Positions 43,541 to 56,954 of a stretch of DNA of 64,000 nucleotides are shown here, piece by piece; position 1 is the first letter of the stretch; every line of letters begins with the position of its first letter. The stretch comes from an uncultured bacterium. GTDB taxonomy: Bacteria; Bipolaricaulota; Bipolaricaulia; UBA7950; UBA9294. The notes under the pieces are model-generated. The model ran no database searches, was not told the DNA's origin, and saw only the letters and a list, made by a program, of their open reading frames with translations. The translations under genes and the position numbers were made by a program. The stretch is taken from NCBI GenBank assembly GCA_903857865.1, contig CAIOGO010000015.1:124001-188000 (forward strand), in the 5' to 3' direction.

Positions 43541-43556
43541 GCCTGCGTCGGGCTAG
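43525..43556. repeat. 16-bp tandem duplication at the junction of convergent genes
   Basis: GCCTGCGTCAGGCTAG and GCCTGCGTCGGGCTAG lie head to tail with one mismatch. The first copy holds the HAD stop codon; the CTAG of the second supplies the stop codon of the opposite-strand gene. Confidence 0.7.
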
Positions 43557-44113
43557 ATGTCCGAGGGTTTGCAGAGGATCTCTCGAATGCGCAGGTCGAA
43601 GAACCGATTCATGTGCGCCGGCCGCAGGACGACGGCCGTGTCAGCGCCGTGGCCGGTGCCCGCGACGCAGATGATGTCACGATCCGTTGGGATGAGCCCC
43701 GCGTCGGCCGCCATCACTGCGATTTCGACGCAGACCTTCATTCCCTGGCCGAAGAGGCGCAGCGTGTGCGCGATGAGCTCGACCGGCGTCGTGCCTCCGA
43801 ACTGAGCCGAGATCGACCGACCGATGCCCGAGAGAGCGTGCGTAGCGATAAGAATCGGGACGTCGGCAGCCCGCAGAGCCGCTTCGTATTCCGGCACGAG
43901 GTCGAGTTCGTCGCCGTTGCCGAACCCCGCGTGGTGGGTGACGCAGACGAGCTTGACGTTTCGGCCGGCGAGCGCATCGAGGAAACGTACGCCGGTCTCG
44001 CCGGTGCTCGTCGCAACCACGACGCAGTGGATTCCGCCCAGAGGAAGGCGGCGCTGCACGACGTCGATCACAAGGGCCATTGCGTCACCGCGATTTAATC
44101 CTGACGTGGCCAT
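43553..44113 (-). CDS. stand-alone pyruvate-kinase alpha/beta-domain protein
   Basis: A 186-residue protein equivalent to the C-terminal PK_C domain of pyruvate kinase without the catalytic barrel: IHCVVVATSTGETGVRF, KLVCVTHHAGFGNGDELD, and the closing AGTGHGADTAVVLRPA. Free-standing PK_C proteins are known in bacteria and archaea without clear function; a ligand-sensing role is a guess. AAGGAGG sets ATG 44113. It follows the amino-acid ABC genes on the same strand, 36 nt after the last permease, and may be their last cistron. Confidence 0.75.
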   Translation of the reverse strand: MATSGLNRGDAMALVIDVVQRRLPLGGIHCVVVATSTGETGVRFLDALAGRNVKLVCVTHHAGFGNGDELDLVPEYEAALRAADVPILIATHALSGIGRSISAQFGGTTPVELIAHTLRLFGQGMKVCVEIAVMAADAGLIPTDRDIICVAGTGHGADTAVVLRPAHMNRFFDLRIREILCKPSDI

Positions 44114-44149
44114 GCCGCCTCCTTGTTTCACGGGGTGACATCCGCGTCG

Positions 44150-44842
44150 CTACCGACCGCGCTCCTCGATCGAGAGGCCAGGAATCCTCAACCTCATTTC
44201 GGCGTAGGCAAGCATCCGCGACAACAGGATGACCATGACCAGGTACATGACGCCGGCGATGATGTAGGACTCGAATACCCGCCCGGTCTTGGAGGCCACC
44301 TTCATGCTCGCGTACGACAGTTCCTCCAGGCCGATGAAGTAGACGGTCGAGGAGTAGAGAAGCGTATAGATGAGTTCGTTCGACCACGACGGGAGGACGA
44401 TGCGCAACGCCTGTGGGAGGATAACAGAACGGACGGCTTGCATCTTCGTCATCCCCATCGAGCGAGCCGCCTGCATTTGTCCTGAGCTGATCGCCTGGAT
44501 TGCACCGCGGATGTACTCGGCTTGGTAGGCGGCGCTGTTCAGAGCCATCGCGAGACAACCCGCCGCCAACGAACTCAGCGGCTTCAGGCCCATGGCTTTG
44601 AAGTACGGCGGAAGGCCGAAGTAGATGACGAGCACCTGGATGACGAGCGGCGTGCCGCGCATGAACTGGATGTAGACATTGGCAATGCCGCTCAAGACTC
44701 GGTTCGCGTAGACCCGCGTCAACGCTAGGAAGAGGCCCAGGACGAGCCCGGCGCCGATGCCAACGGCCGTGAGTTCGAGCGTGACGCCAACGGCTCCGAG
44801 GAAGCGCGGCATCACCGTCCCGGTGAACTCAAAGAAGCTCAT
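44150..44842 (-). CDS. polar amino-acid ABC transporter permease (HisM/GlnP type)
   Basis: 230 residues with about five TM helices and the coupling motif of amino-acid permeases, [17 protein letters not shown] and [27 protein letters not shown] in order. ATG 44842 overlaps the ATPase stop by 4 nt. With the second permease, ATPase and binding protein it forms a complete importer. Confidence 0.92.
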
Positions 44843-45624
44843 TGCCCGTCCGTCTCCCCATACAGCTCGGTGATCTTGCGCAGGAACTGTCCCGTGCGTT
44901 CGCAACGGGGGCAGGTGAACAACTCAGCCGGCGTTCCCTCTTCCAGGATGCCGCCACCCTCCATGAAGATGATCCTGTCGGCAACGGCGCGGGCGAATCC
45001 CATCTCATGCGACACGACGATCATCGTCATGCCGCCACGAGCCAACTGGATCATGACTTCCAGCACCTCGCCAATCAGTTCCGGGTCGAGCGCTGAGGTC
45101 GGCTCATCGAACAGGATGAGCTTCGGATCCATCGCCAGGGCTCGGGCGATGGAGACACGTTGCTTCTGTCCACCGGAGAGTTCCGCCGGATACGAACACG
45201 CCTTTTCGGCAAGGCCGACGCGCGCCAGTTCCTCGCTTGCGCGTGCCAGAGCGGCTTCCTTCGGCATCTTCCTGACCTTGATGAGCCCGAGACTGACGTT
45301 CTGAAGCGCGTTGAGGTGGCTAAACAAGTTGAAGTCCTGGAACACGAAGCCAATCTGCGCCCGAACGTGGTTGATGTTCGTTCGGGCGTGAGTAATCTCG
45401 ACATCCTCCAGCCACACACGGCCCTTGTCCGGCACAGAGAGCTGGTTGATGCAACGGAGGAGCGTGCTCTTGCCTGTTCCCGACGGGCCGATGACGACCT
45501 TCGTCTCCCCGCGGCGAAGCTCGAACGAGACGCCCTTGAGGACTTCATCCTTTCCATATCGCTTGTGTAGGTCCTCGACGCGAAGAACGACGTCGCCGAG
45601 GCGGGATTCACTCTCTGCGGGCAT
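44839..45624 (-). CDS. polar amino-acid ABC transporter ATP-binding protein
   Basis: 261-residue GlnQ/HisP-type ATPase: Walker [11 protein letters not shown]-loop [10 protein letters not shown], signature LSGGQKQRV, Walker [13 protein letters not shown], switch VSHEMGFAR. The short C-terminal tail has CPRC (a possible metal site), not general in the family. It overlaps the upstream permease stop as TGATG and the downstream permease as ATGA. Confidence 0.95.
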
Positions 45625-46334
45625 CAGCGTTCCACCTTTCCTTTCATCTCGAACCCCGGGATGCTCAGCCGGCGCTCGAGCAGCGCGAGCAGTCCGTTTC
45701 CCCCGTAGGTGAGCGCCAGGTAGAAGAGCCCGAGGATGATGAGGTACGGAAGGATCAGTTGGGTTCCGATAGGACGGCGCATGGAGAGGGGCGCCAACTT
45801 CATCAGCGCCTGACGCGTCAGGTCGATGAGCCCGCCGATGACGCAGATGAACGCCGTATCCTTGACCACACTCGAGTACTCATTCGCCCACGGCGGAATC
45901 GCCAGGCGGAACGCTTGAGGAACGATGACGCTGCGAATGGCTTGGATTCTGCTCATTCCAAGCGAGCGCGCAGCCATCATCTGCCCGGGTGGCACGGCCT
46001 GGATGGCGCCGCGGAAGATCTGCGATTGGTACGCGGCCGACCGCATCCCAAGAGCCAACGCCGCGACAACAATGCCCGGCACAGGCACGCCGAGCGCCGG
46101 GGTGATGCCGTTCCAGAAGAGGAGGATGACGACGAGGGGAGGAATGCCCCGGAACAACTGCTCATATCCGACACAGAGAGCGCGGAGCGGACGCCGTCCG
46201 TACGCCTGCGCGAACGCGAGGACAGTACCCAACGTCAATCCCACAATGAGCAAGAGACCGAGGACCTCGAGCGTAACCGGCAGCGCATCGAAAAGCGGTC
46301 GCACATTCTGCCAGAGAATCTCAGTGGCGGTCAA
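45624..46334 (-). CDS. polar amino-acid ABC transporter permease, second subunit
   Basis: 236 residues with about five TM helices and the EAA-type loop SAAYQSQIFRGAIQAVPPGQMMAARSLG. It is paralogous to the other permease, so the channel is a heterodimer. TTG 46334 is the start, with GGGGGAGGG 4 nt upstream; the next in-frame ATG would truncate TM1. Confidence 0.9.
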   Translation of the reverse strand: MTATEILWQNVRPLFDALPVTLEVLGLLLIVGLTLGTVLAFAQAYGRRPLRALCVGYEQLFRGIPPLVVILLFWNGITPALGVPVPGIVVAALALGMRSAAYQSQIFRGAIQAVPPGQMMAARSLGMSRIQAIRSVIVPQAFRLAIPPWANEYSSVVKDTAFICVIGGLIDLTRQALMKLAPLSMRRPIGTQLILPYLIILGLFYLALTYGGNGLLALLERRLSIPGFEMKGKVER

Positions 46335-46366
46335 CGCACCCTCCCCCTGCGAGGGATTGCCTCAGA

Positions 46367-46396
46367 GAGGGCACGAGGCATGCGCCTCGTGCCCTC
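46367..46396 (-). terminator. 13-bp intercistronic hairpin
   Basis: GAGGGCACGAGGC, an ATGC loop and GCCTCGTGCCCTC form a perfect 13-bp stem between the binding-protein gene and the first permease. No T-run follows, so partial termination or 3'-end protection is more likely than full termination, as in other ABC importer operons where binding protein is needed in excess. Confidence 0.6.
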
Positions 46397-46420
46397 CTCA
46401 GACTTCCGACTAGAAGTGCT

Positions 46421-47278
46421 CTACGGGGCTGTTGCGCCGGCGGCCAAAGCGTGTGCGAAGCCGGTAACGTCCTTCGCCGCCAGGAATGGAGCTGCAGCGA
46501 CCCATGCCGCCTCGATCTTCGTCAACTCCGCGCCGCCCATATAGGCGGTGATCAGATCGGCCCACGCGGTCGACGCTTTGAGCTGTTGGAGCCCGGCGTT
46601 GATCTTCGGGAGGAGTCTGTTCGGATCGCCATTCGTGACGAAGAACCCAAACTGCTCGCCGGTTTCGATGACTCCGACGATGGAGAGCCGAGCGTCCGCG
46701 GCCACGCTGGCGCGAGACGCGGGTTCATCCTGAACCACAGCGTCCACGTTCCCGTTGACAAGGTCGAGCACGGCAAGCGGATAGAGCGTGTACTCGACGA
46801 GCTTGACGTTCACGCCTTTGTCGATGAGCTGTTCCTGCACCCACTTTGCTCCCGTGGTCCCGACTTGGGCGCCGATCTTCATCCCGGCGCTGAGTGCGCT
46901 GGCGATGTTCAAGTCGGAGTCCGCCATTACGATGACGGCCTGGTTCGACGTCCAGTAGGGCGCCGAGAAGTCCACTACCGCCTCGCGCTCCGCTGTGATC
47001 GTGGCTCCAGACGCACCGATGTCTACGCGCCCGTTCCCGACATCGATGAAGATGATGTCCCAGCTGTAGCTGACAATCTCGACATCGTACCCCTCGAGAA
47101 TAGCGATGAGCCGCATCACATCGAGGTCGAATCCGATGAGCTGTCCGCCGCCCGCCTGCCACTCGAACGGAGGCCACGTCGTGTCCGACGCCACCTTATA
47201 CGTCGCGGCGGCCGCGGACACCATGCAAAGCCCGACGACAGCCAACAGACACCCTAGTACCAGGAGATTTTTCTTCAT
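46421..47278 (-). CDS. extracellular amino-acid-binding protein of ABC importer
   Basis: 285 residues: signal peptide (1-25, ending SAAAATY), then a family 3 solute-binding fold beginning YKVASDTTWPPFEW and LIGFDLDVMRLIA, with VDIGASGATITAERE and VDAVVQDEPAS. These match the ligand-binding hinge of polar amino-acid receptors. No lipobox is clear, so it is either periplasmic or held by its uncleaved signal. AAGGAGG sets ATG 47278. It is the first gene of the importer operon. Confidence 0.92.
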   Translation of the reverse strand: MKKNLLVLGCLLAVVGLCMVSAAAATYKVASDTTWPPFEWQAGGGQLIGFDLDVMRLIAILEGYDVEIVSYSWDIIFIDVGNGRVDIGASGATITAEREAVVDFSAPYWTSNQAVIVMADSDLNIASALSAGMKIGAQVGTTGAKWVQEQLIDKGVNVKLVEYTLYPLAVLDLVNGNVDAVVQDEPASRASVAADARLSIVGVIETGEQFGFFVTNGDPNRLLPKINAGLQQLKASTAWADLITAYMGGAELTKIEAAWVAAAPFLAAKDVTGFAHALAAGATAP

Positions 47279-47303
47279 CCTGCTACACCTCCTTGCTGGA
47301 ACA

Positions 47304-47332
47304 ACGTAACGGGAAAGCGCCGCGCGAGTCAA
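47304..47332 (-). promoter_or_regulatory. promoter of the amino-acid importer operon
   Basis: Minus strand TTGACT (47332-47327), 17 nt, TTACGT (47309-47304), 25 nt before the binding-protein ATG. The -10 is poor, so a regulator or weak basal activity is possible. Confidence 0.45.
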
Positions 47333-47410
47333 TGGGGTGCGAGCTGCGGAACTCGGAGAGAGAAGACCTGACGGCTGGATTCAGTTCGGATGGCGATGGC
47401 TAGTGAGTCC

Positions 47411-47980
47411 TCAACGCGAGCGGGCGCCGGCGAGCCACCGTGCGGTCTCGCGCGGGCAGCGGAGCCGGACGACGACGAGGTGCTTGTTCTCCGGACGCGC
47501 GAGGAGTTCGGAGTACTCGCGATGTCGGCGGCGATGGGTCTTGATCGCCCAAAGGAGAATGGATTCCCGCGACAGGAGGGACATGCGCAGGCTCTCCCGG
47601 TTCCCGTGCCAAAGCTCCTCACGCGTGAAGGCACGGCGCAGCGTGCGCCGCACGAGGCGCGTGAAGACGCGCGGGAATGAGTAGTCGAGCCAGACGACGG
47701 TGTCCGCACGAGCCCAGACAATGTCGCGTGTCTTACTGTAGTTGCCGTCGATCACCCAGCGTTCCCTGGCGGCCGCGTTCGCGACGTCGGCGCGGAAGAC
47801 GTCGTCGGGCCGCATCGTCCAGTCCGGCCCCCACGACAGCGCGTCAAGCTCGACATCGACGAATCCCAGGCGCTCGGCCAAGGCTCGCGCGACGGTCGTC
47901 TTCCCCGCTCCGCACGTGCCGACGACGTTGATCCGACTTCCGACTTCCTTCGGCGCCCGCTCCGCATCCACTGATCCCAC
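47411..47980 (-). CDS. P-loop nucleotide kinase-like protein (FlaR/adenylate-kinase-like)
   Basis: 189 residues. P-loop VVGTCGAGKTTVARALA at about 19-35 and Walker-B-like DTVVWLDYSFPRV, with an Arg-rich lid (TRLVRRTLRRAF) and WVIDGNYSKTRD resembling DNA-topology-modulation protein FlaR and shikimate/adenylate kinase relatives. Substrate unknown. ATG 47980 has no strong ribosome-binding site. It runs leftward behind the lipoprotein gene and ends 78 nt before the importer promoter. Confidence 0.7.
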   Translation of the reverse strand: MGSVDAERAPKEVGSRINVVGTCGAGKTTVARALAERLGFVDVELDALSWGPDWTMRPDDVFRADVANAAARERWVIDGNYSKTRDIVWARADTVVWLDYSFPRVFTRLVRRTLRRAFTREELWHGNRESLRMSLLSRESILLWAIKTHRRRHREYSELLARPENKHLVVVRLRCPRETARWLAGARSR

Positions 47981-48004
47981 CTCGAGGCGTTCCCCGAAAA
48001 CGAT

Positions 48005-48037
48005 GCGGCCGCGTCTCGAAATCCGCGGCCGCGTCTC
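48005..48037. repeat. 13-bp direct repeat
   Basis: GCGGCCGCGTCTC occurs twice, 20 bp apart, in the 141-nt gap after the DUF4097 gene. A short CCTCT-TTTC-AGAGG hairpin and a TTCCGT-CTGTA-ACGGAA hairpin (48086-48102) follow and could terminate the leftward ABC operon. Confidence 0.5.
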
Positions 48038-48121
48038 CTCTTTTCAGAGGCTAACCAGCGCCCCCATTCTGCCGGATCCTAGGGATTCCGTCTGTAACGG
48101 AAGTCACCTCCGCCCTCCGGA

Positions 48122-49030
48122 TTAGGGTTGCCCCGCGATGTGGACGGCGCCGTTGCTCGTTCGGATCATAACCTTCGCCGTGGCCGGCGGATTGAGCGCA
48201 GCAAGCCACTCCTTGCCCTGCGTGTCGCCGACGAGCGGCAAGGTGGACGAGATCGTGCCGGCCGACGTCTCGGCTTGGAACTCGATCGACGCGTTCACCG
48301 AGACTGCGATGTCGATGCGGCCGTTGCTCGTATGCAGGCTGTTGGCATCGCCGACCGCTGTTCCGCTGAAGCCGATGCGCCCGTTCGAGGTCGAGGCGTC
48401 AAAGGCGGCGCTGACGTCGACCATGCTGATCTCGCCGTTCGACGTCTCGAGATCAAGGACGCCCTGGACCCGTTCCACCGAGATGCGGCCGTTGCTCGTT
48501 CCCGCGCGAAGCTCGCCGACAACGTCCGCGATGGCGATCTCGCCGTTCGAGGTCTCGAGATCGAATCGCCCTTGGACGGAGGAAACCGAGACGGCGCCGT
48601 TGCTCGTTTGGGCGCCGACGTCGACGATGGCCGGCGTAGTCACGTCGAACGCGACGCCGGCATAGCGGCGTACGTCGGGCGCCTGCTCGCTCGCGCGGTA
48701 GGCGAGGACAATTCGTGAGCCTTGCTGTTCCATGTGAATCGTCATGGCGGCGACGCGCGCGTTCGCCTCGGTCTGGTTGCCGCCGCGGGCGCGGAGCGTG
48801 GCAGTGACGCGCACGTCCGTCTGTCCCGGAACGCCGCGGACGCTGACGGCTCCGTTCGAGCTCGCAACCTCGAGCATCGGAATGCTCGACGCTGGGAATG
48901 CGGCCGTCTCCGCCCTCGTCGCCTCGAAGCGCGCGCTCACGACATCTTCAAGATCGCAGGCCGAGGCGCCAACCAGCGCGGCGCCGAGAACGACCAAGAC
49001 AACGAATCGTATGCCGGCCCTTCCTCCCAT
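48122..49030 (-). CDS. DUF4097 beta-repeat lipoprotein
   Basis: 302 residues. A signal peptide ends GASAC with Asp at +2, a plausible though imperfect lipobox. The rest is a beta-helix of repeated TSNGxIxI units (ASSNGAVSV, TSNGAVSV, TSNGEIAI, TSNGRISV, TSNGEISM, TSNGRIGF, TSNGRIDI), the DUF4097 signature. GGAGG 8 nt before ATG 49030. It is the last gene of the GntR-ABC operon; lipoproteins of this kind often sit with such exporters. Function unknown. Confidence 0.8.
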   Translation of the reverse strand: MGGRAGIRFVVLVVLGAALVGASACDLEDVVSARFEATRAETAAFPASSIPMLEVASSNGAVSVRGVPGQTDVRVTATLRARGGNQTEANARVAAMTIHMEQQGSRIVLAYRASEQAPDVRRYAGVAFDVTTPAIVDVGAQTSNGAVSVSSVQGRFDLETSNGEIAIADVVGELRAGTSNGRISVERVQGVLDLETSNGEISMVDVSAAFDASTSNGRIGFSGTAVGDANSLHTSNGRIDIAVSVNASIEFQAETSAGTISSTLPLVGDTQGKEWLAALNPPATAKVMIRTSNGAVHIAGQP

Positions 49031-49071
49031 CTTCCCAACCTCCGGTTCTCTTCCCAAAGAACTCCTCTCCA

Positions 49072-49233
49072 TCAGAGAGTGCCCCCGACGACTTGCCAGA
49101 CGAGCACAGCCGAGAAGAATACCCCGACGCCGCGTGACGTCCAGCTTGTTGTCCCCGTCCACAAGCGAAATGCCCAGAACCCGACGAGGGCGAGGAACAC
49201 GATCCGGACGACGATCAAGAATGCTTGCGTCAT
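49072..49233 (-). CDS. 53-residue membrane protein
   Basis: A small protein with one long or two short hydrophobic segments (FLIVVRIVFLALVGFWAF and VGVFFSAVLVWQVV) and a Trp-rich middle (RLWTGTTSW). GGGAGGT lies 6 nt before ATG 49233, and the ATG overlaps the permease stop as ATGA, so translation is well supported. No family recognised. A subunit or regulator of the adjacent exporter is likely from position alone. Confidence 0.65.
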   Translation of the reverse strand: MTQAFLIVVRIVFLALVGFWAFRLWTGTTSWTSRGVGVFFSAVLVWQVVGGTL

Positions 49234-49997
49234 GCTTCCACCTCCCGCCAGATGCGGCTGGCGATGACGAGCAGGACAAGGGTCAGCGCTAGCATGATCC
49301 ACAGCGGCTCTTGCGGCAAGGTGGCCACTGGCTCGAGCTGCGCCTCCACTGTCGTCTGCAGCACTGCCGTTTGGACGCCTTCCAGTAGCCGCCAACCCGG
49401 GAGCGTGTAGGACACACGCACGATCCCTTCGATCAGCCAGCGAAGCACGAACAGCGTCCCGAGGATCATGACGGTGCCCGGGACCCAGCCTGGTCCCGAC
49501 ACCCGGTAGGCGCTGGTGAACACCATGAGCAAGAGGGTCCACGCCAAGAGCGGCAACACAGTGACGCCGAGGACGTAGAGGGGGATCGCCAGGGTCAGCT
49601 GCGCGATGCTCCCCGCATCGAGTGGAACGGCGGACATCCACAGGGTCCAGCAGGCGAGTCCGCCGATCATCACGTAGTACAAGACGGCCGTCGCAAGGGC
49701 GAACGTGTACCGCGCCGCGATATGAGCATGGCCTGACGGCGGCGACAAGAGGAGAACCTGGTACTGCCCGCCCCTTGTCTCACCGCGGAGGCGGCCGATC
49801 ATGAGCGCAAGGACGACCGCGCCGCCGACGGCGGCCATCGCCACAAGCATGCCGCGAATGCCTAGTTGTTCTGCCAGCTCGATGCGACGAACCTGGAATA
49901 GCCCCCAGGCCCAAAACGCAAGCGATCCGATGAGCGCAATGGCCCAGGCCCCGCTGCGACGGTACTCCAGCCAGAAGAGTGTCCTGAATCCCTTCAC
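49230..49997 (-). CDS. ABC-2 permease of GntR-controlled exporter
   Basis: 255 residues, six hydrophobic segments, of the YtrC/D-like ABC-2 type. Start GTG 49997 overlaps the ATPase stop (GTGA) and has GGGAGGT upstream. The first 20 residues are basic and hydrophobic. Paired with the ATPase before it, it should export an unknown substrate, perhaps an antibiotic or a wall precursor, as in YtrA-regulated systems. Confidence 0.85.
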   Translation of the reverse strand: MKGFRTLFWLEYRRSGAWAIALIGSLAFWAWGLFQVRRIELAEQLGIRGMLVAMAAVGGAVVLALMIGRLRGETRGGQYQVLLLSPPSGHAHIAARYTFALATAVLYYVMIGGLACWTLWMSAVPLDAGSIAQLTLAIPLYVLGVTVLPLLAWTLLLMVFTSAYRVSGPGWVPGTVMILGTLFVLRWLIEGIVRVSYTLPGWRLLEGVQTAVLQTTVEAQLEPVATLPQEPLWIMLALTLVLLVIASRIWREVEA

Positions 49998-50674
49998 CCG
50001 AGCACCTCCCGGAACGCCTGCACGACACTGCGTCCCTGATTCCGAAGCTCCTCCGCCCGCGCATCGAGAGCGAGACGGCCCTCGCGCAAGTAGAGGACGC
50101 GTTCGAACAACCCCTCCGCTTCGGCGACCTCGTGAGTCGAGAGGAGGATCGTCTCGTCCGTATGCCACTCCCGGACGATGGACTGCAGGATCTTCTCACG
50201 CGACAGAAGGTCGATCCCGGCGAGCGGCTCATCGAGCAGGTAGAGCTTCGCGTCGCGCGCGAGCGCCATCGCGAGACGGAGCCGGCCTCGCTCGCCCTTC
50301 GACATGGCCTTCGTCTTTCGCTTGGGCACGGCGAGGCTGTCGAGAAGGGCGCGGTAACGGCCGACGTCGAAGTCGTCGTACAGGCCCTGCATGAAAGTCT
50401 CCGCGTCGGCGGGCGTCATCCACGTCCATAAGGAGTCATTCTCGCCAAGGTACACGAGCTTCGCGCGCTTCTCTCGTGGCGGCCCGTCGAACAGCGTCAC
50501 CTTCCCCGCAGTCGGGAAGAGGAGGCCGGCGAGAAGCTTCAGAAGGGTTGACTTCCCGGACCCATTCAGCCCCAGGACGCCGACGACCTGCCCGGCGGGG
50601 AAGTCGATCGTGACGTTACTCAGGCCGTCCGTTCGGCCGTATCGTTTCGTCACATCGCTAAGACTCGCCAGCAT
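49994..50674 (-). CDS. ABC transporter ATP-binding protein of GntR-controlled exporter
   Basis: 226 residues: Walker A GLNGSGKST, signature region MSKGERGRLRLAMALA, Walker B LYLLDEPLAGID, switch STHEVAEAE. The signature is SKGER rather than LSGGQ, a common variant in YtrB-like exporters. It overlaps the 3' end of the GntR gene by 17 nt. Confidence 0.9.
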   Translation of the reverse strand: MLASLSDVTKRYGRTDGLSNVTIDFPAGQVVGVLGLNGSGKSTLLKLLAGLLFPTAGKVTLFDGPPREKRAKLVYLGENDSLWTWMTPADAETFMQGLYDDFDVGRYRALLDSLAVPKRKTKAMSKGERGRLRLAMALARDAKLYLLDEPLAGIDLLSREKILQSIVREWHTDETILLSTHEVAEAEGLFERVLYLREGRLALDARAEELRNQGRSVVQAFREVLG

Positions 50675-51041
50675 CCAGCACCTCCTTCAAGACCCCGAGC
50701 GCCTCGCCCTTCGAGATGCCGAGAGCCGTGACCTCGGCGGAGAACGCGGTCGCCGCCGCTCGCAACAGGTCGTGGCGCAGCGCAGCCACAGGCGCATCCT
50801 TGCGCACGAATGTCCCAAGTCCCCGTTTGGTTTCGATCACTGCCATCCTTTCCAGCTCAGCGAACGCGTGCACGATCGTGTTGGGGTTGACGCCCAACTC
50901 CGCGGCCAGGTCGCGCGCGCTGGGGAGTCTTTGCCCTGGGGCAAGATCCCCTCGCGCAAGCATTCGGCGCACGCCGGAAGCGATCTGGACGAAGATCGGC
51001 CCCGCGTTCATGTCGAGCTGCCAAGCGCTCTTGGTTGTCAT
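50658..51041 (-). CDS. GntR-family repressor (YtrA subfamily)
   Basis: 127 residues: an N-terminal winged helix (QRLPSARDLAAELGVNPNTIVHAFAELERM, wing RGLGTFV) and a short C-terminal two-helix dimerisation part (about 50 residues), the YtrA size and layout. It presumably represses its own operon. The start ATG 51041 is 8 nt from the -10 and lacks a ribosome-binding site, while an operator palindrome overlaps the promoter. An in-frame start at 51077 is unlikely, since it would lie upstream of the promoter. Confidence 0.9.
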   Translation of the reverse strand: MTTKSAWQLDMNAGPIFVQIASGVRRMLARGDLAPGQRLPSARDLAAELGVNPNTIVHAFAELERMAVIETKRGLGTFVRKDAPVAALRHDLLRAAATAFSAEVTALGISKGEALGVLKEVLDAGES

Positions 51042-51044
51042 AGT

Positions 51045-51078
51045 GTCGGAGTATACTAGTACACACCGACAAGTCAAG
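51045..51078 (-). promoter_or_regulatory. promoter and 26-bp operator of the GntR-ABC operon
   Basis: Minus strand TTGACT (51077-51072), 16 nt, TATACT (51055-51050). A near-perfect 26-bp palindrome at 51045-51070 (22 of 26 positions symmetric, core GTATACTAGTACAC) covers the -10. The ATG follows the -10 by 8 nt, so the transcript is nearly or fully leaderless. Confidence 0.7.
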
Positions 51079-51210
51079 GCATCGGCGCTTAGCGAGGTAA
51101 GTTAGGTGCTGTCGCGCAAGGCTGAGCGAGATTGGAATGGCGACAGGGTCTACTGGGGAAACCCAGTTCGTGTTCCCGTGAAGCGATACGGCGGTATCAT
51201 CACTAGAGAG

Positions 51211-51891
51211 ATGTCGATCATCCGTGCAGGGTACTCGGGCGACCATCGTGATGTTGCCATCATTTCTGATCGTCATGGTCAGCCGAACACTGCTGGCACA
51301 CTGCATGGCTTAGGTCCTAATGAAGACCTCTACAAGACGCTTCGCCTTGGGCCTGAGGTTGCCGTTGGGATGGCAGGAGATGGTCGTCTGTGCAACCTCA
51401 TTCTGGCAGCCGCGCTGGGCCTCCCAGAATCACAGGAACCAAGTTTCCTCTCTTCACTCGTAGCTGGCGAGGAACGACTATCCTCGTCGTTTCTTGATGT
51501 TGTTCATGCGTTCGAGTGTGCTGCGCCAGCAGTGATAGCCGAGAGACGTCCGCCTTTCCAGATAGACGCAACGATGATAATCGTTGGGAGGCTAGAGGGT
51601 CGTCCGGTCATTGGTGAACTGAACAGGCGCACCAGGTGGCGTGTCCTCTACGCATCGGAGCGATCGTCATACTGCATTCCAGAAGAGATGTCCGATGATG
51701 ACCTGCTGTTCTACGAGAGCTATGTGACGAGACCCGGCCTGAACTACATTGCGTCGTTGAAAGCAGCTGTCGGGTTCTGTGCAGACCGCTATGAGTCTGT
51801 CAATCATCGCTACGTGCTTCGGCGTCTGAAGAATGGATTCCGACGCGAGGAAGGCGACGTACGACAAGACGCTTCTCTGGCCAGCAACTAG
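51211..51891 (+). CDS. possible proteasome-type Ntn-hydrolase
   Basis: 226 residues with lower GC than neighbours. After Met, the sequence SIIRAGYSGDHRDVAIISDR resembles the N-terminal strand pair of proteasome beta subunits (hydrophobic strand, then a D-R/H turn at the position of Asp17). EDLYKTLRLGPEVAVGMAGDGR resembles the DxxKI-IxDHI-xAGxxAD segment that holds catalytic Lys33, and a later DATMIIVGRLEGRPVIGEL resembles the next core strand. Thr1 would be replaced by Ser (or start differently). This is motif-level similarity only. ATG 51211 has a weak site; an in-frame GTG at 51106 would bury the N-terminus. Otherwise a hypothetical protein. Confidence 0.5.
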   Translation: MSIIRAGYSGDHRDVAIISDRHGQPNTAGTLHGLGPNEDLYKTLRLGPEVAVGMAGDGRLCNLILAAALGLPESQEPSFLSSLVAGEERLSSSFLDVVHAFECAAPAVIAERRPPFQIDATMIIVGRLEGRPVIGELNRRTRWRVLYASERSSYCIPEEMSDDDLLFYESYVTRPGLNYIASLKAAVGFCADRYESVNHRYVLRRLKNGFRREEGDVRQDASLASN

Positions 51892-52024
51892 CTAGTACCA
51901 GATCCATTGCTTGCCGATGATAGGGTAGTGTAGCGCCGGAATGCTCCTTGCTTCAATTCGGCGAACTCGCCTCCACCTCCGGGGTTTTGCGTTCCGTCGG
52001 CGACTGATGGCAGAATTGCCCACC

Positions 52025-52786
52025 ATGAAACTGTCGAACGTCATCTACTGCGGCGATAACCTTGAGTGGATGCGCAAGATGCCAGACGAGTTCGTTGACC
52101 TCGTCTATGCAGACCCTCCGTTCTTCTCGAACAAGCACTACGAGGTCATCTGGCACGATGGAGCAGAGATCAGGTCGTTCGAGGATCGGTGGCAGGGCGG
52201 CGTCCACCACTACATCGAGTGGATGCGGATGCGGTGCGAGTTGATGCACCGTCTGTTGAAGCCGCATGGCGTTCTGTACCTGCATTGCGACTGGCACGCA
52301 AGCCACTACCTCAAAGTCATGCTCGATGATCTCTTTGGCCAGAGCAGTTTCCTGAACGAGATCGTCTGGTGGTACGAGAACAAGCCGCAGGATGCGAGGA
52401 AGAAGATCCTGCCGAGAGACTACGACACGATTCTTGTCTACGCCAAGACTTACGGAGGCCAATTCTACGCGCCGCAGTATGTTCCGACGGTTCGGCCCAG
52501 AAAGCAGAACAAGGTCATCAAAGTGGACGGGCGGAGGGTGTCGGCACGTGACGAGAACGGGAACGTTATCTATGAGTTCCGCGACAAGAAGATGCTAGGG
52601 AGCGTTTGGCCCATACCGTACTTGAATCCCGTTGCGAAGGAGCGGCTTGGTTACCCAACACAGAAGCCGCGTGCCTTACTTCGCCGGATAATTGAGACGA
52701 GCAGCGCAAAGGGCGCGCTTGTTCTTGATCCATTCTGCGGTTGTGGCACGTCAATCATTGCTGCGCAGGAACTCGGCAGGGAGTGA
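52025..52786 (+). CDS. DNA methyltransferase (beta-type N6/N4), cut by an in-frame TGA
   Basis: 254 residues from ATG 52025 (in-frame ATG 52007 and an earlier start at 51941 are possible). Catalytic motif IV is ADPPF and comes first; AdoMet motif I, LVLDPFCGCGTS, comes near the C-terminus, the permuted beta order. The central WWYENKPQDARKKILPRDYDTILVY is the target-recognition region. The frame ends at a TGA (52784-52786) just where the family has the conserved Trp of GRxWIGIDIS, then continues in the same frame as IGIDVSPTACKLM into the nuclease-like domain. The methyltransferase motifs are all present, but the last strand is missing. Confidence 0.8.
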   Translation: MKLSNVIYCGDNLEWMRKMPDEFVDLVYADPPFFSNKHYEVIWHDGAEIRSFEDRWQGGVHHYIEWMRMRCELMHRLLKPHGVLYLHCDWHASHYLKVMLDDLFGQSSFLNEIVWWYENKPQDARKKILPRDYDTILVYAKTYGGQFYAPQYVPTVRPRKQNKVIKVDGRRVSARDENGNVIYEFRDKKMLGSVWPIPYLNPVAKERLGYPTQKPRALLRRIIETSSAKGALVLDPFCGCGTSIIAAQELGRE

Positions 52787-52822
52787 ATCGGCATTGACGT
52801 ATCGCCGACGGCCTGCAAACTG

Positions 52823-53269
52823 ATGAAACGCGAGGTGGAAAAGATCGGCGCGAAGGGTGTGCGGATGGATGGACTGCCGATGAGCCTTGATGAGCTAAAG
52901 AAGCTAACGCCGATTGAGTTCCAGAATTGGATTCTCGGGGCGATGGACGGGACCGTCAGCAAGAAGCCGGTTCACGATATGGGGATTGATGGACTCACGT
53001 TCATGGAGCGCGTCCCCGTTCAGGTCAAACAGCAAGAGCACGTTGGGCGTCCTCGGGTGGATGACTTCGAGACGGCCGTTAGGCGCTACTACTCAGACGC
53101 GCTCAAGGCATCAGTGGAGCGCGGCGAGGAGTCCTTCGTCATGCGCGGTATCATCGTCGCATTCAGCTTCTCCAGTGGCGCATATGAAGAGGTCGCTCGC
53201 GTCAAGTCGGAAGGGATCGAAATCGAGCTGCTCAAGGTCGAGGATGTCGTAAGCCACCTCTCCGGCTAA
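52823..53269 (+). CDS. PD-(D/E)XK restriction-endonuclease-like domain, split from methyltransferase
   Basis: 148 residues from ATG 52823. After a helical LTPIEFQNWI (a family entry motif) come DMGIDGLTF and VPVQVKQ, the D...(E/Q)xK core of Mrr-like restriction nucleases, and a closing GIIVAFSFSSGAYEEVARVK strand-helix. Comparable bacterial proteins carry this domain fused C-terminally to the same methyltransferase; here it is in the same frame, separated from it by a TGA. The frame between the TGA and this ATG encodes 12 further family residues, so the ATG start is likely not original. Either split gene, readthrough, or pseudogene. Confidence 0.7.
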   Translation: MKREVEKIGAKGVRMDGLPMSLDELKKLTPIEFQNWILGAMDGTVSKKPVHDMGIDGLTFMERVPVQVKQQEHVGRPRVDDFETAVRRYYSDALKASVERGEESFVMRGIIVAFSFSSGAYEEVARVKSEGIEIELLKVEDVVSHLSG

Positions 53270-53275
53270 CTCCCC

Positions 53276-53321
53276 GAGCATCCGGCCAACACAAGATCCA
53301 TCATCCGCCCCTTCTCTCGGC
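53276..53321. repeat. 46-bp repeat, copy A (IS1595-type end debris)
   Basis: Matches 54780-54825 at 39 of 46 positions in the same orientation. On the minus strand it encodes AERRGG-stop, equivalent to the AERRDG-stop tail of the transposase fragment next to copy B, so it is the terminal scar of a lost element. Confidence 0.65.
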
Positions 53322-53397
53322 AGTGCGGGTTGTTGACTACTTCAGCGGTTCTGTGTCGAGAAGAGGGGAGGTCGGGTACATGAAAGCGCGTAGTCGT

Positions 53398-53748
53398 CTA
53401 CTGTGGCGTCTGTGGAAACTCTTCCATCGTCACGAAGTAGTCGGAATACGAGTAGAGATACAGCCTGCCACAGTGCGGGCACTGCTGAAATGCTGGTACG
53501 AGGTTGACCGACGGCGATGCAGGGGCCTTGGCTCCGTGGAGAGCAGCGATAGCACCTAGTATGACCGACATCTTGCTCGTCATGGCATCAACTGCGTGCA
53601 CGGCTGTCTCCTCCGAGATCCCGGCTGGCAACTCCGTGAGAAGAGCCTTTCCTTCGCTGCTGGCGAGGAAGTCTCTGTTGCAGTCACGGTTACGACACCG
53701 TAGTCCGACCCATACGTGCTTGGCAGTCCCGATCTTCCGTTGACCCAT
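53398..53748 (-). CDS. zinc-ribbon hypothetical protein
   Basis: 116 residues. Two Cys pairs, LRCRNRDCN near the N-terminus and QCPHCGRLY near the C-terminus, make a split zinc ribbon around a helical middle (VHAVDAMTSKMSVILGAI). Start ATG 53748 follows AGGAGGtacatc, an ideal site. No family recognised. It lies between the restriction-like pair and the NYN gene, opposite in direction, in the low-GC island. Confidence 0.6.
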   Translation of the reverse strand: MGQRKIGTAKHVWVGLRCRNRDCNRDFLASSEGKALLTELPAGISEETAVHAVDAMTSKMSVILGAIAALHGAKAPASPSVNLVPAFQQCPHCGRLYLYSYSDYFVTMEEFPQTPQ

Positions 53749-53972
53749 GATGTACCTCCTGAATGCGGAGGATAGCGGAGAAGTGACGCTGTTGGCAATC
53801 GCGGCGGGAGGGGTGAGTTAAGATGATGACACGAACGCCTCCCTCGATAATCGCCGCTGTAGTCACGGCGCCCGAGAGCGTGGCAGTAGATTGATGTGAG
53901 CCGCGGTTCACCGTAGTCGCTGCATTGTGGATTGCAGTGCCGTAGTTCTGCTGGCTTTAGGACATCCGCTAC
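53749..53972. other. intergenic, nothing recognised
   Basis: 224 nt between the zinc-ribbon gene start and the NYN promoter. Short hydrophobic frames exist on the minus strand without ribosome-binding sites. I see no gene, repeat or hairpin worth naming. Confidence 0.4.
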
Positions 53973-54000
53973 TTGACAGGTACCGGGATTGTGCTACACT
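53973..54000 (+). promoter_or_regulatory. consensus sigma70 promoter of the NYN gene
   Basis: TTGACA (53973-53978), 16 nt and TACACT (53995-54000): the best promoter in the window. The transcript would start near 54007 and carry a 109-nt leader. Confidence 0.75.
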
Positions 54001-54006
54001 TCGACC

Positions 54007-54067
54007 ATTGAAGCCCTCGGGCGGTATGCCCTATGCCCCGGGTGAGAGCCGCCTGAAATGATAGTCC
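54007..54067 (+). promoter_or_regulatory. structured 5' leader of the NYN gene
   Basis: About 60 nt with a repeated TATGCCC, a GGCGG/CCGCC pairing across the middle and a GCCC-TC-GGGC hairpin. It is followed directly by a terminator-like hairpin. The order (aptamer-like region, hairpin, ribosome-binding site) resembles an attenuator or riboswitch. I compared it mentally with the common riboswitch consensus sequences and found no match. Confidence 0.4.
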
Positions 54068-54093
54068 CAGGGGGGCCTCCCAAGGCCCCCCTG
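54068..54093 (+). terminator. attenuator-like hairpin in the NYN leader
   Basis: CAGGGGGGCC, loop TCCCAA, GGCCCCCCTG: a perfect 10-bp GC-rich stem, 22 nt before the GTG start. No long T-run follows (only AATGTCTT), so it could equally affect translation. Confidence 0.5.
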
Positions 54094-54115
54094 AATGTCT
54101 TGACCGGAGGTCGGC

Positions 54116-54751
54116 GTGACAGAGACTCCTGTAGTTCAGACTCAGCGCCTCCGGGTGTTTCTCGACTACTGGAACTTCCAACTCACCTTGAACGAGCGAT
54201 CGGCCGCACAGTTGCGGCTCGATTGGATCGTTCTACCAGTCTGGATCGCGAACCGTGCTGACGAAGTGATTGTGGCGACCGGGGAATCTCCGGGCAGGTA
54301 CGTGGGCGGCATTGTGTATGCCTCGTATGATTCCTGGAACCCAAGAGACGGGAGCCTGAAGTCCTGGCTTGAGAATGTCGTGTCCCGCGCGCCGGGGATG
54401 AAAGTTGTAACGAAAGAACGCAAGCCCAAGAGCCCGCCAAGATGCCCTGCTTGCCATGCAGAAATCGCTGTATGCCCACACTGCGCGGAACCGATACGGC
54501 GAATGGGAGAGAAAGGCATCGACACGGGACTTGTCACAGACCTCTTAAGGCACGCATGGGAAGACACATATGACACGGCGGTCCTGGTGTCGGCCGATGC
54601 GGACTTCATCCCCGCGGTTGAATTCGTCCAGGAGAAAGGCAAACGTGTCATCCACGCTGGTTTCCCGCCAGATGGCATGGAGCTACGCAAGGCGTGTTGG
54701 GCGTCTGTGGATCTCGGATCTCTGATCGACAAGATGCCGCTTAGACCGTGA
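54116..54751 (+). CDS. NYN-domain (PIN-like) nuclease with inserted zinc ribbon
   Basis: 211 residues. The NYN acidic residues lie in VFLDYWNF (Asp about 16), GIDTGLVTDLL and LVSADADFIPAV, the usual metal site of LabA/DUF88-type RNases. A zinc ribbon, CPACHAEIAVCPHC, is inserted before the third motif. The predicted role is RNA cleavage. GTG 54116 has GGAGG 5 nt upstream. It has a strong promoter and structured leader, and sits between two scars of an IS1595-type element. Confidence 0.8.
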   Translation: MTETPVVQTQRLRVFLDYWNFQLTLNERSAAQLRLDWIVLPVWIANRADEVIVATGESPGRYVGGIVYASYDSWNPRDGSLKSWLENVVSRAPGMKVVTKERKPKSPPRCPACHAEIAVCPHCAEPIRRMGEKGIDTGLVTDLLRHAWEDTYDTAVLVSADADFIPAVEFVQEKGKRVIHAGFPPDGMELRKACWASVDLGSLIDKMPLRP

Positions 54752-54779
54752 GCCTGGATGTCTAGGTTCATAGTTGACC

Positions 54780-54825
54780 TAGCATCCAGCAAGAACTAGA
54801 TCCATCATCCGTCCCTTCTCTCGGC
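54780..54825. repeat. 46-bp repeat, copy B
   Basis: See 53276-53321 for copy A. This copy overlaps the last codons of the transposase fragment on the minus strand. The two copies are in the same orientation, 1.5 kb apart, and flank the zinc-ribbon and NYN genes. Confidence 0.65.
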
Positions 54826-55065
54826 GATGGGAGTATCGGACGCAAACTCGTCCAAGTAGTCCTGTAGCAGCTTCGCGCTGACATGATGGTACATCCCGGT
54901 GAGGCCGCGCTTGAAAGGACTCCAGGCGTTCTCGACGTAGTTCGTGTTGACGTCCCCGTCGGTGTACTCGCGCGCGTGGACGACCTGGAACTGCGCCCCA
55001 TACCTCCACAGGCGGTTGAAGGACCACGAGGCATCCGTGTAGATCCTACGCACCGTTCCGAAGTT
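54805..55065 (-). pseudogene. IS1595-family (ISXO2-like) transposase, C-terminal fragment
   Basis: About 86 residues of the DDE transposase C-terminus: YTDASWSFNRL, VVHAREYTDGDVNTNYVEN (the DVxTNxxEGxW motif of the family) and KRGLTGMYHHVS-LLQDYLDEF. No N-terminal half precedes it; at 55065 it meets unrelated sequence leading to the GNAT gene. The family motif has NAW where GFW/FW is usual. No complete element or inverted repeats were found. Confidence 0.75.
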
Positions 55066-55213
55066 GGCTCGGCATACGCGAAGCGCCGGGCGCCCCCCAC
55101 GCGTCCGGGATGCCGTGGCTGTGCGTCGCCTCACGACGGGAGGGCTTCCATGGGTTGCTCGTTCCCTCCATGGCGGCGAACATGGACGGCACCGAATCAC
55201 GAAAGGACGATCC

Positions 55214-55883: not shown

Positions 55884-56954
55884 ATGGTGAACATCGACAG
55901 GCACGACGACCTTCTGAACGAGAGCATGGCGCTCCTCCGAGGCCTCCTCGGGAGAGGAGTCTCGCTCGGCAAATTGAAGAAGAAGCTTGGCGCCGGGGGA
56001 CCGGACGCCGTGTATCGCCTTACGCTCCCCGATCGCCGGGAGGTCGAGTTCTTCGTCTCCGCGTGGCCGACCCTTCGGCCTTCTCTTCTGGCCACGATCG
56101 AGAGCGAAATCGAGCGCTGGAAGTCGGAGCACGATTGCGGGACTGTGCTGATTGCATCGTCCTACGTTTCCGAGTCTCTTGCCCTCAAGCTCCGGAAGCG
56201 ACGCGTGTGGTTCGCAGACTCGGCCGGGAACGCCTACGTCGAGGTGCCCGGAGCGCTGTTCGTCTACTCGGTTGGCAAGAAGCCCGTCGCGGTGCGCGCC
56301 GCGAAAGCGCACTGGATGAGCGAACAGGGCGCCAAGGTGCTCTACGAGCTGCTCGCGTGCGGCCCGCTCGTCGAGGCGACGTATCGTGACGTCGAAGAGA
56401 GCACGGGGGTCTCGCTCGGAATGATCTCGAAGCTCGTGTCCGAGTGGGTCAAAGACGGAATCCTCGAACGACGGGGACGGGGAACCTACGAGATCGTCCA
56501 CGGGGCTCGCCTGCTCGATATGTGGGTCAGGGCGTACGCCGACACGCTGCAGCCGAAGATCACCCTTGGTCGGTATCGAGCCGCAGGGCGATCGAGCTTC
56601 GCCGCCATGATCGAAGCGGCCGAAGAGGAGATGGACCTCGGCCACATTACGGTGGGCGGGGAGTACGCGGCAGATCTCCTGACCGGCGCGGCGAAGGCGC
56701 AGTCCATGCGCTTGTACGTCCCCGAGGAGGAGCGGGGCCGCGTCCAGCGTGCGTTCCAGCTCGCGCCGTCTCCTGATGGAAACGTGGAGATGTGTGAGGC
56801 GTTTGCCGGCGATATCGGCCGCCCGGCCGGCGGAATGGAACTCCGCGTTGCCCATCCGGCGCTTGTCGTCGCCGAACTCCTCGCGAGCAACGATGCGCGG
56901 CTGGGGAAGACGGCGGCCGAGATCCGACGAAGGCACCTCGCGTGGGTTCGCTAG
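55884..56954 (+). CDS. AbiEi-like transcriptional regulator (type IV antitoxin family)
   Basis: 356 residues. A DUF-like N-terminal segment (LPDRREVEFFVSAWPTLRP, IASSYVSESLALKLRKRRVWFADSAGN) precedes a winged helix (TYRDVEESTGVSLGMISKLVSEWVKDG, wing RGRGTYEIV) and a C-terminal domain of about 150 residues. This matches AbiEi/COG4861-type regulators that act as antitoxins of AbiEii nucleotidyltransferases. No AbiEii gene is seen downstream: the next gene encodes DUF3795. The toxin may be lost, distant, or never present. Confidence 0.7.
   Translation: MVNIDRHDDLLNESMALLRGLLGRGVSLGKLKKKLGAGGPDAVYRLTLPDRREVEFFVSAWPTLRPSLLATIESEIERWKSEHDCGTVLIASSYVSESLALKLRKRRVWFADSAGNAYVEVPGALFVYSVGKKPVAVRAAKAHWMSEQGAKVLYELLACGPLVEATYRDVEESTGVSLGMISKLVSEWVKDGILERRGRGTYEIVHGARLLDMWVRAYADTLQPKITLGRYRAAGRSSFAAMIEAAEEEMDLGHITVGGEYAADLLTGAAKAQSMRLYVPEEERGRVQRAFQLAPSPDGNVEMCEAFAGDIGRPAGGMELRVAHPALVVAELLASNDARLGKTAAEIRRRHLAWVR

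Follow-up and report, generated by a model that had tools for sequence, protein, structure and literature searches.

A TGA at a conserved tryptophan codon interrupts a fused DNA methyltransferase-nuclease gene on a laterally acquired island

The window analyzed here is a 64,000-base stretch (G000:C15:124001-188000) of a 2.24-Mb, 22-contig draft genome (G000) that is ~91% complete. Within it, positions 52025-53269 form one frame consisting of 253 codons, a TGA, a further 160 codons, and a terminal TAA at 53267-53269. The start at 52025 matches the GTG start of a homologue, L008, described below; the mechanical open-reading frame starts at 51941. At the stop density of the window, a 160-codon open frame would occur by chance with a probability of ~0.07, so openness by itself is weak proof of one gene, and it is homology that settles the question. 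The features of the locus and its surroundings are listed in Table 1.

Table 1 Features of the interrupted gene and of the island that carries it
Feature	Position	Strand	Description	Basis
Upstream part	52025-52783	+	Beta-class N6/N4 DNA methyltransferase, end of fold missing	Pfam N6_N4_Mtase and alignment
Motif IV (DPPF)	52112-52123	+	Residues 30-33	
Target-recognition region	Between motif IV and motif I	+	In upstream part	
Motif I (DPFCGCGT)	52727-52750	+	Residues 235-242	
TGA stop	52784-52786	+	Codon 254; Trp (TGG) in relatives	
Same-frame continuation	52787-53269	+	Final methyltransferase strand and helix, then Mrr-like nuclease	
GID motif	52790-52798	+	Last methyltransferase strand	
Nuclease GIDG	52982-52993	+		
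Nuclease QVK	53021-53029	+		
Downstream ATG ORF	52823-53269	+	148 aa, nuclease alone; sole ATG-initiated ORF in downstream part	
Island	51065-55199	.	~4.1 kb, 57.3% GC (flanks 64-66%)	Absent from three same-genus genomes
261-aa gene	51106-51891	+	In island	No Pfam/NCBIfam match
116-aa frame		-	Short, in island	
Second short copy of transposase 3′ end	About 53274-53330	-	Directly after interrupted gene	Direct repeat D1, 57 nt, 81%; weak tblastn match, E 0.034
NYN-domain gene	54116-54751	+	Putative ribonuclease, in island	
IS1595-type (ISXO2-like) transposase remnant	54782-55092	-	Right side of island	Pfam DDE_Tnp_IS1595, 1.2e-14; tblastn with L008 transposase
AbiEi_2-type gene	55884-56954	+	Just right of island	Conserved in same-genus genomes, 80-87% identity

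The joined frame matched, from end to end and at 61-62% identity, an uninterrupted protein encoded by L008 (JAGLXM010000310.1, Bipolaricaulota MAG RS_12_53). This is the only close full-length homologue; it was reached by two routes, as L006 and L008 are one gene, and was also reached in G030, from the same family as the window genome. At the position of the TGA, L008 has TGG, which differs by one base. An alignment-based scan of viral contigs gave 80 relatives, in which this codon is TGG in 77, TAT (tyrosine) in 3, and a stop in none, and nearly all of them run unbroken for at least 135 residues beyond it. With the single protein as the query, no close viral-contig relatives were found, and they were reached only with an alignment of seven sequences; the downstream part alone gave no match in plasmids, phages, or PHROGs. 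The tryptophan, W254, does not vary across a 50-sequence alignment and is also found in distant fused plasmid and phage proteins from Candidatus Megaera, Rhizobium, Mesorhizobium, Marinitoga phage MPV1, and Mycobacterium phage Amgine. The copy in Tenacibaculum phage PTm5 has phenylalanine at the tryptophan position. This PTm5 relative (L010:1302-2739) is annotated as separate ORFs, namely an endonuclease, two methyltransferase pieces, and a hypothetical protein, and the copy is possibly decayed or mis-annotated. A second strain with the locus was not found among the family and phylum genomes searched, and an exact-pattern search of viral contigs gave none either. Among the sequences compared, the TGA is private to this assembly. 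The sequence-only reading of this DNA, that one frame is divided by a single TGA, that this TGA replaces a conserved TGG, and that the gene encodes a methyltransferase fused to a nuclease, is borne out by the uninterrupted homologue and by the relatives, which are fused rather than always encoded as separate genes.

Upstream of the stop, the motifs follow the beta-class order of motif IV (DPPF), target-recognition region, and motif I (FxGxG). Before the stop, the Pfam profile N6_N4_Mtase (3.8e-42) is matched over positions 1-205 of 221, and the joined reading extends the match to 1-220. An AlphaFold model built from 50 sequences (mean pLDDT 86.5), adopted since a two-sequence structure prediction was unusable (pLDDT 34), places W254 together with the GID motif (W-I-G-I-D) in a strand at residues 253-258, with a helix at 261-273 coming next. 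Solved beta-class methyltransferases, of which M.BceJIV, CcrM, MboIIA, and RsrI are the best matches, align to the model up to about residues 273-286. In the methyltransferase fold, the acidic residue that ends this strand binds the SAM ribose. The 253-residue product that ends at the stop thus lacks a complete SAM-binding fold, as the profile ends at 205 of 221 and both the strand and the helix lie at or after the stop. Judged by profile and model, the stop is inside the methyltransferase fold and not at a domain boundary, and because it removes the helix and most of the strand that carries GID, a working methyltransferase from the 253-aa product is unlikely. The same region had been taken, from sequence alone, for a complete permuted methyltransferase core ending in GRE at the stop, which could remain active as a methyltransferase alone; the first of these claims is wrong, since the Pfam match, the model, and the solved structures all extend past the TGA, and the second becomes unlikely with it. 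An in-frame stop beside a conserved motif can mimic a domain boundary even though it falls inside a fold, and caution is needed in reading such cases.

Downstream of the stop, the sequence is 66% identical to L008 by tblastn, and the conserved D...QxK is present as GIDG and QVK. The Mrr_cat profile was matched in 44 of the 50 aligned relatives (E ≤ 0.01) and in the window itself with an E value of 0.00096 and 19.7 bits, slightly below the curated cut-off of 21. The assignment of an Mrr-like nuclease to this part, made at first from the letters, is upheld by the motifs and by the relatives. The lists of solved-structure matches for the joined model were filled by the methyltransferase half. As read from the domain order, the stop would cut the nuclease off from its methyltransferase and target-recognition region.

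The interrupted gene lies on an island that is missing at the corresponding place in related genomes. G004 is collinear with the window over 43550-51064 and again from 55200 onward, and just 97 bp separate the two stretches there; G003 and G002 are also without the island interval. The 261-aa gene of the island had no match in the 10 relative genomes searched. The L008 homologue lies directly after a 5′-truncated transposase of the same IS1595 type (L008:4444-5004), the stop of which overlaps the GTG start of the gene, so that transposase remnants adjoin the gene in both genomes, although in different arrangements. No terminal inverted repeats were recognized around the gene. The interrupted gene is laterally acquired, and an IS1595-type element possibly helps to move it. 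Disrupted defence genes are common in mobile-element debris, and on a lateral island with decayed transposase pieces gene loss is to be expected. In a separate count over the window (1-64000), GATC occurred 512 times against ~205 expected from base composition, with dinucleotide content ignored.

Compared with L008, 103 of 160 residues after the TGA are identical (64%), as are 144 of 252 before it. When changes were assigned to lineages with seven compact viral relatives as the outgroup, the window and L008 had 3 each after the stop, and upstream of it 16 and 9, respectively. By these counts, the sequence after the TGA is without decay and has no excess of substitutions, and the differences by codon position after the stop (0.22, 0.23, and 0.66) point to purifying selection across most of the divergence. 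An undecayed and constrained downstream part indicates that the stop is recent, is absent in reality, or is not fully effective.

The simplest explanation, to which we give a probability of about 0.62, is that a single-chain restriction-modification gene, gained by lateral transfer, has recently suffered a nonsense change, most likely with both activities lost; a consensus or base-calling error comes next. According to this account, the intact protein would consist of an N-terminal beta-class N6/N4 methyltransferase with its own target-recognition region and a C-terminal Mrr-like (D...QxK) nuclease, and would presumably restrict DNA. The gene would have arrived on the small island by lateral acquisition, and one recent nonsense codon at the conserved tryptophan, which we infer to be truly present in the cells, would then have inactivated it by truncating the methyltransferase fold and uncoupling the nuclease, leaving truncated products that are probably inactive and both activities likely lost. 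Nonsense mutation and sequencing error had both been named in the sequence-only reading and both are retained, but the active methyltransferase expected there as the outcome of a mutation is unlikely, as the fold is cut.

Less probable, but the main rival, is an intact gene in the population, with the TGA introduced into the metagenome assembly as a miscalled base or as a minority variant. This would fit a draft assembly of many contigs, the single base that separates the TGA from the codon of the relatives, and a downstream part without any decay, which is equally expected with an intact population or a read-through stop. However, the core genes on either side of the island have open frames and run collinear with the same-genus genomes over kilobases, which argues that the assembly is not generally error-ridden, and a survey of same-frame neighbours along the contig revealed no further gene plainly split by a single stop, although this is a weak test.

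We regard as improbable a leaky UGA, at which basal misreading by tRNA-Trp would yield small amounts of the full-length enzyme in addition to an inactive 253-aa product. Such misreading would insert the conserved tryptophan itself, and the downstream part is undecayed, as a leaky stop would allow. The base after the TGA is A, and in E. coli UGAA binds RF2 rather weakly, with readthrough by near-cognate tRNA at some UGA stops (PMC5373646); moreover, no RF3 was above cut-off. Yet TGAA is an ordinary stop context here, found at 8 of the 45 long frames on the contig that end in TGA, this gene possibly among them. The tRNA-Trp, as read from its sequence, has the anticodon CCA, a five-pair anticodon stem, A9, and G24, and none of the readthrough-promoting tRNA-Trp changes named in PMC13092985 was found in it; with an ordinary stem, A9, and G24, a suppressor-type tRNA-Trp was rejected. 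No stimulatory RNA fold was found near the stop, where folding was weaker than that of shuffles (z-scores of 0.96 to 1.51). A conserved stop, which is a hallmark of programmed readthrough, occurs in 0 of the 80 viral relatives and not in L008, and the other hallmark, an RNA structure or specialized tRNA, is likewise missing. The readthrough into two products that had been put forward from sequence alone therefore finds no supporting feature in a stop absent from relatives, an ordinary tRNA-Trp, and RNA that does not fold. Somewhat less probable again is a functional role for the TGA as a tolerated throttle, whereby tRNA-Trp misreading would keep the fused enzyme, once laterally transferred, at a very low level.

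We give very little weight to a functional split, in which a methyltransferase of residues 1-253 and a nuclease begun at the ATG at 52823 would work as two proteins. This ATG is 36 nt past the stop and its ORF holds the whole set of nuclease motifs, making it a possible but unsupported candidate restart, but no Shine-Dalgarno-like ribosome-binding sequence was found upstream of it, the upstream part is without the GID strand and the next helix, and nearly all relatives were found fused. Recoding of TGA to tryptophan or selenocysteine in the source organism would suit a stop at a tryptophan position, but was rejected as extremely improbable, in agreement with the earlier expectation, since TGA terminates 52 of the 143 genes predicted on the one 195-kb contig by a simple codon-score gene finder, RF2 is above cut-off, no tRNA detected by covariance search and typed by ARAGORN has a UCA anticodon, and neither tRNA-Sec nor SelB, which together mark selenoprotein synthesis, reaches cut-off in this ~91%-complete draft, where absence is not absolute.

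With a recent nonsense change as the preferred reading, the window gene represents a single broken allele in a family of compact single-chain methyltransferase-nucleases that is widespread and little studied. The intact architecture, a beta-class methyltransferase with a C-terminal Mrr-like nuclease in ~400 aa, is common in uncultivated phages, and the family would be worth biochemical work. Fused proteins from L008, IMG/VR (L076-L081 and L085), and phages MPV1 and Amgine have the same domain order as the window gene and share with it the motifs DPPF, DPFCGCGT, WIGID, and GIDG...QxK, and the overall length is equal in L008, L076-L081, and L085. These relatives are uninterrupted, whereas the window gene has a stop in place of the conserved tryptophan. 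The methyltransferase half corresponds to PHROG 67 and to PADLOC PDLC03339. In Type IIC/IIG enzymes, a methyltransferase and a PD-(D/E)XK-type nuclease are joined in one chain, as in the relatives of the window gene, whose own chain is interrupted, and the architecture resembles Type IIC, a placement made by homology and not by function. The nearest described arrangement is that of BtgZI, with an N-terminal alpha-class methyltransferase and a C-terminal nuclease in which Q replaces E (PMC4081073), the likeness lying in the domain order and in the nuclease Q. Most Type IIC enzymes have a gamma-class methyltransferase after an N-terminal nuclease (PMC4081073), and the window gene, beta-class by motif order, differs in class from both. 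MspJI shares the C-terminal Mrr-like domain with QxK, but carries at its N-terminus an SRA-like sensor of modified bases (PMC12707154) and not a methyltransferase.
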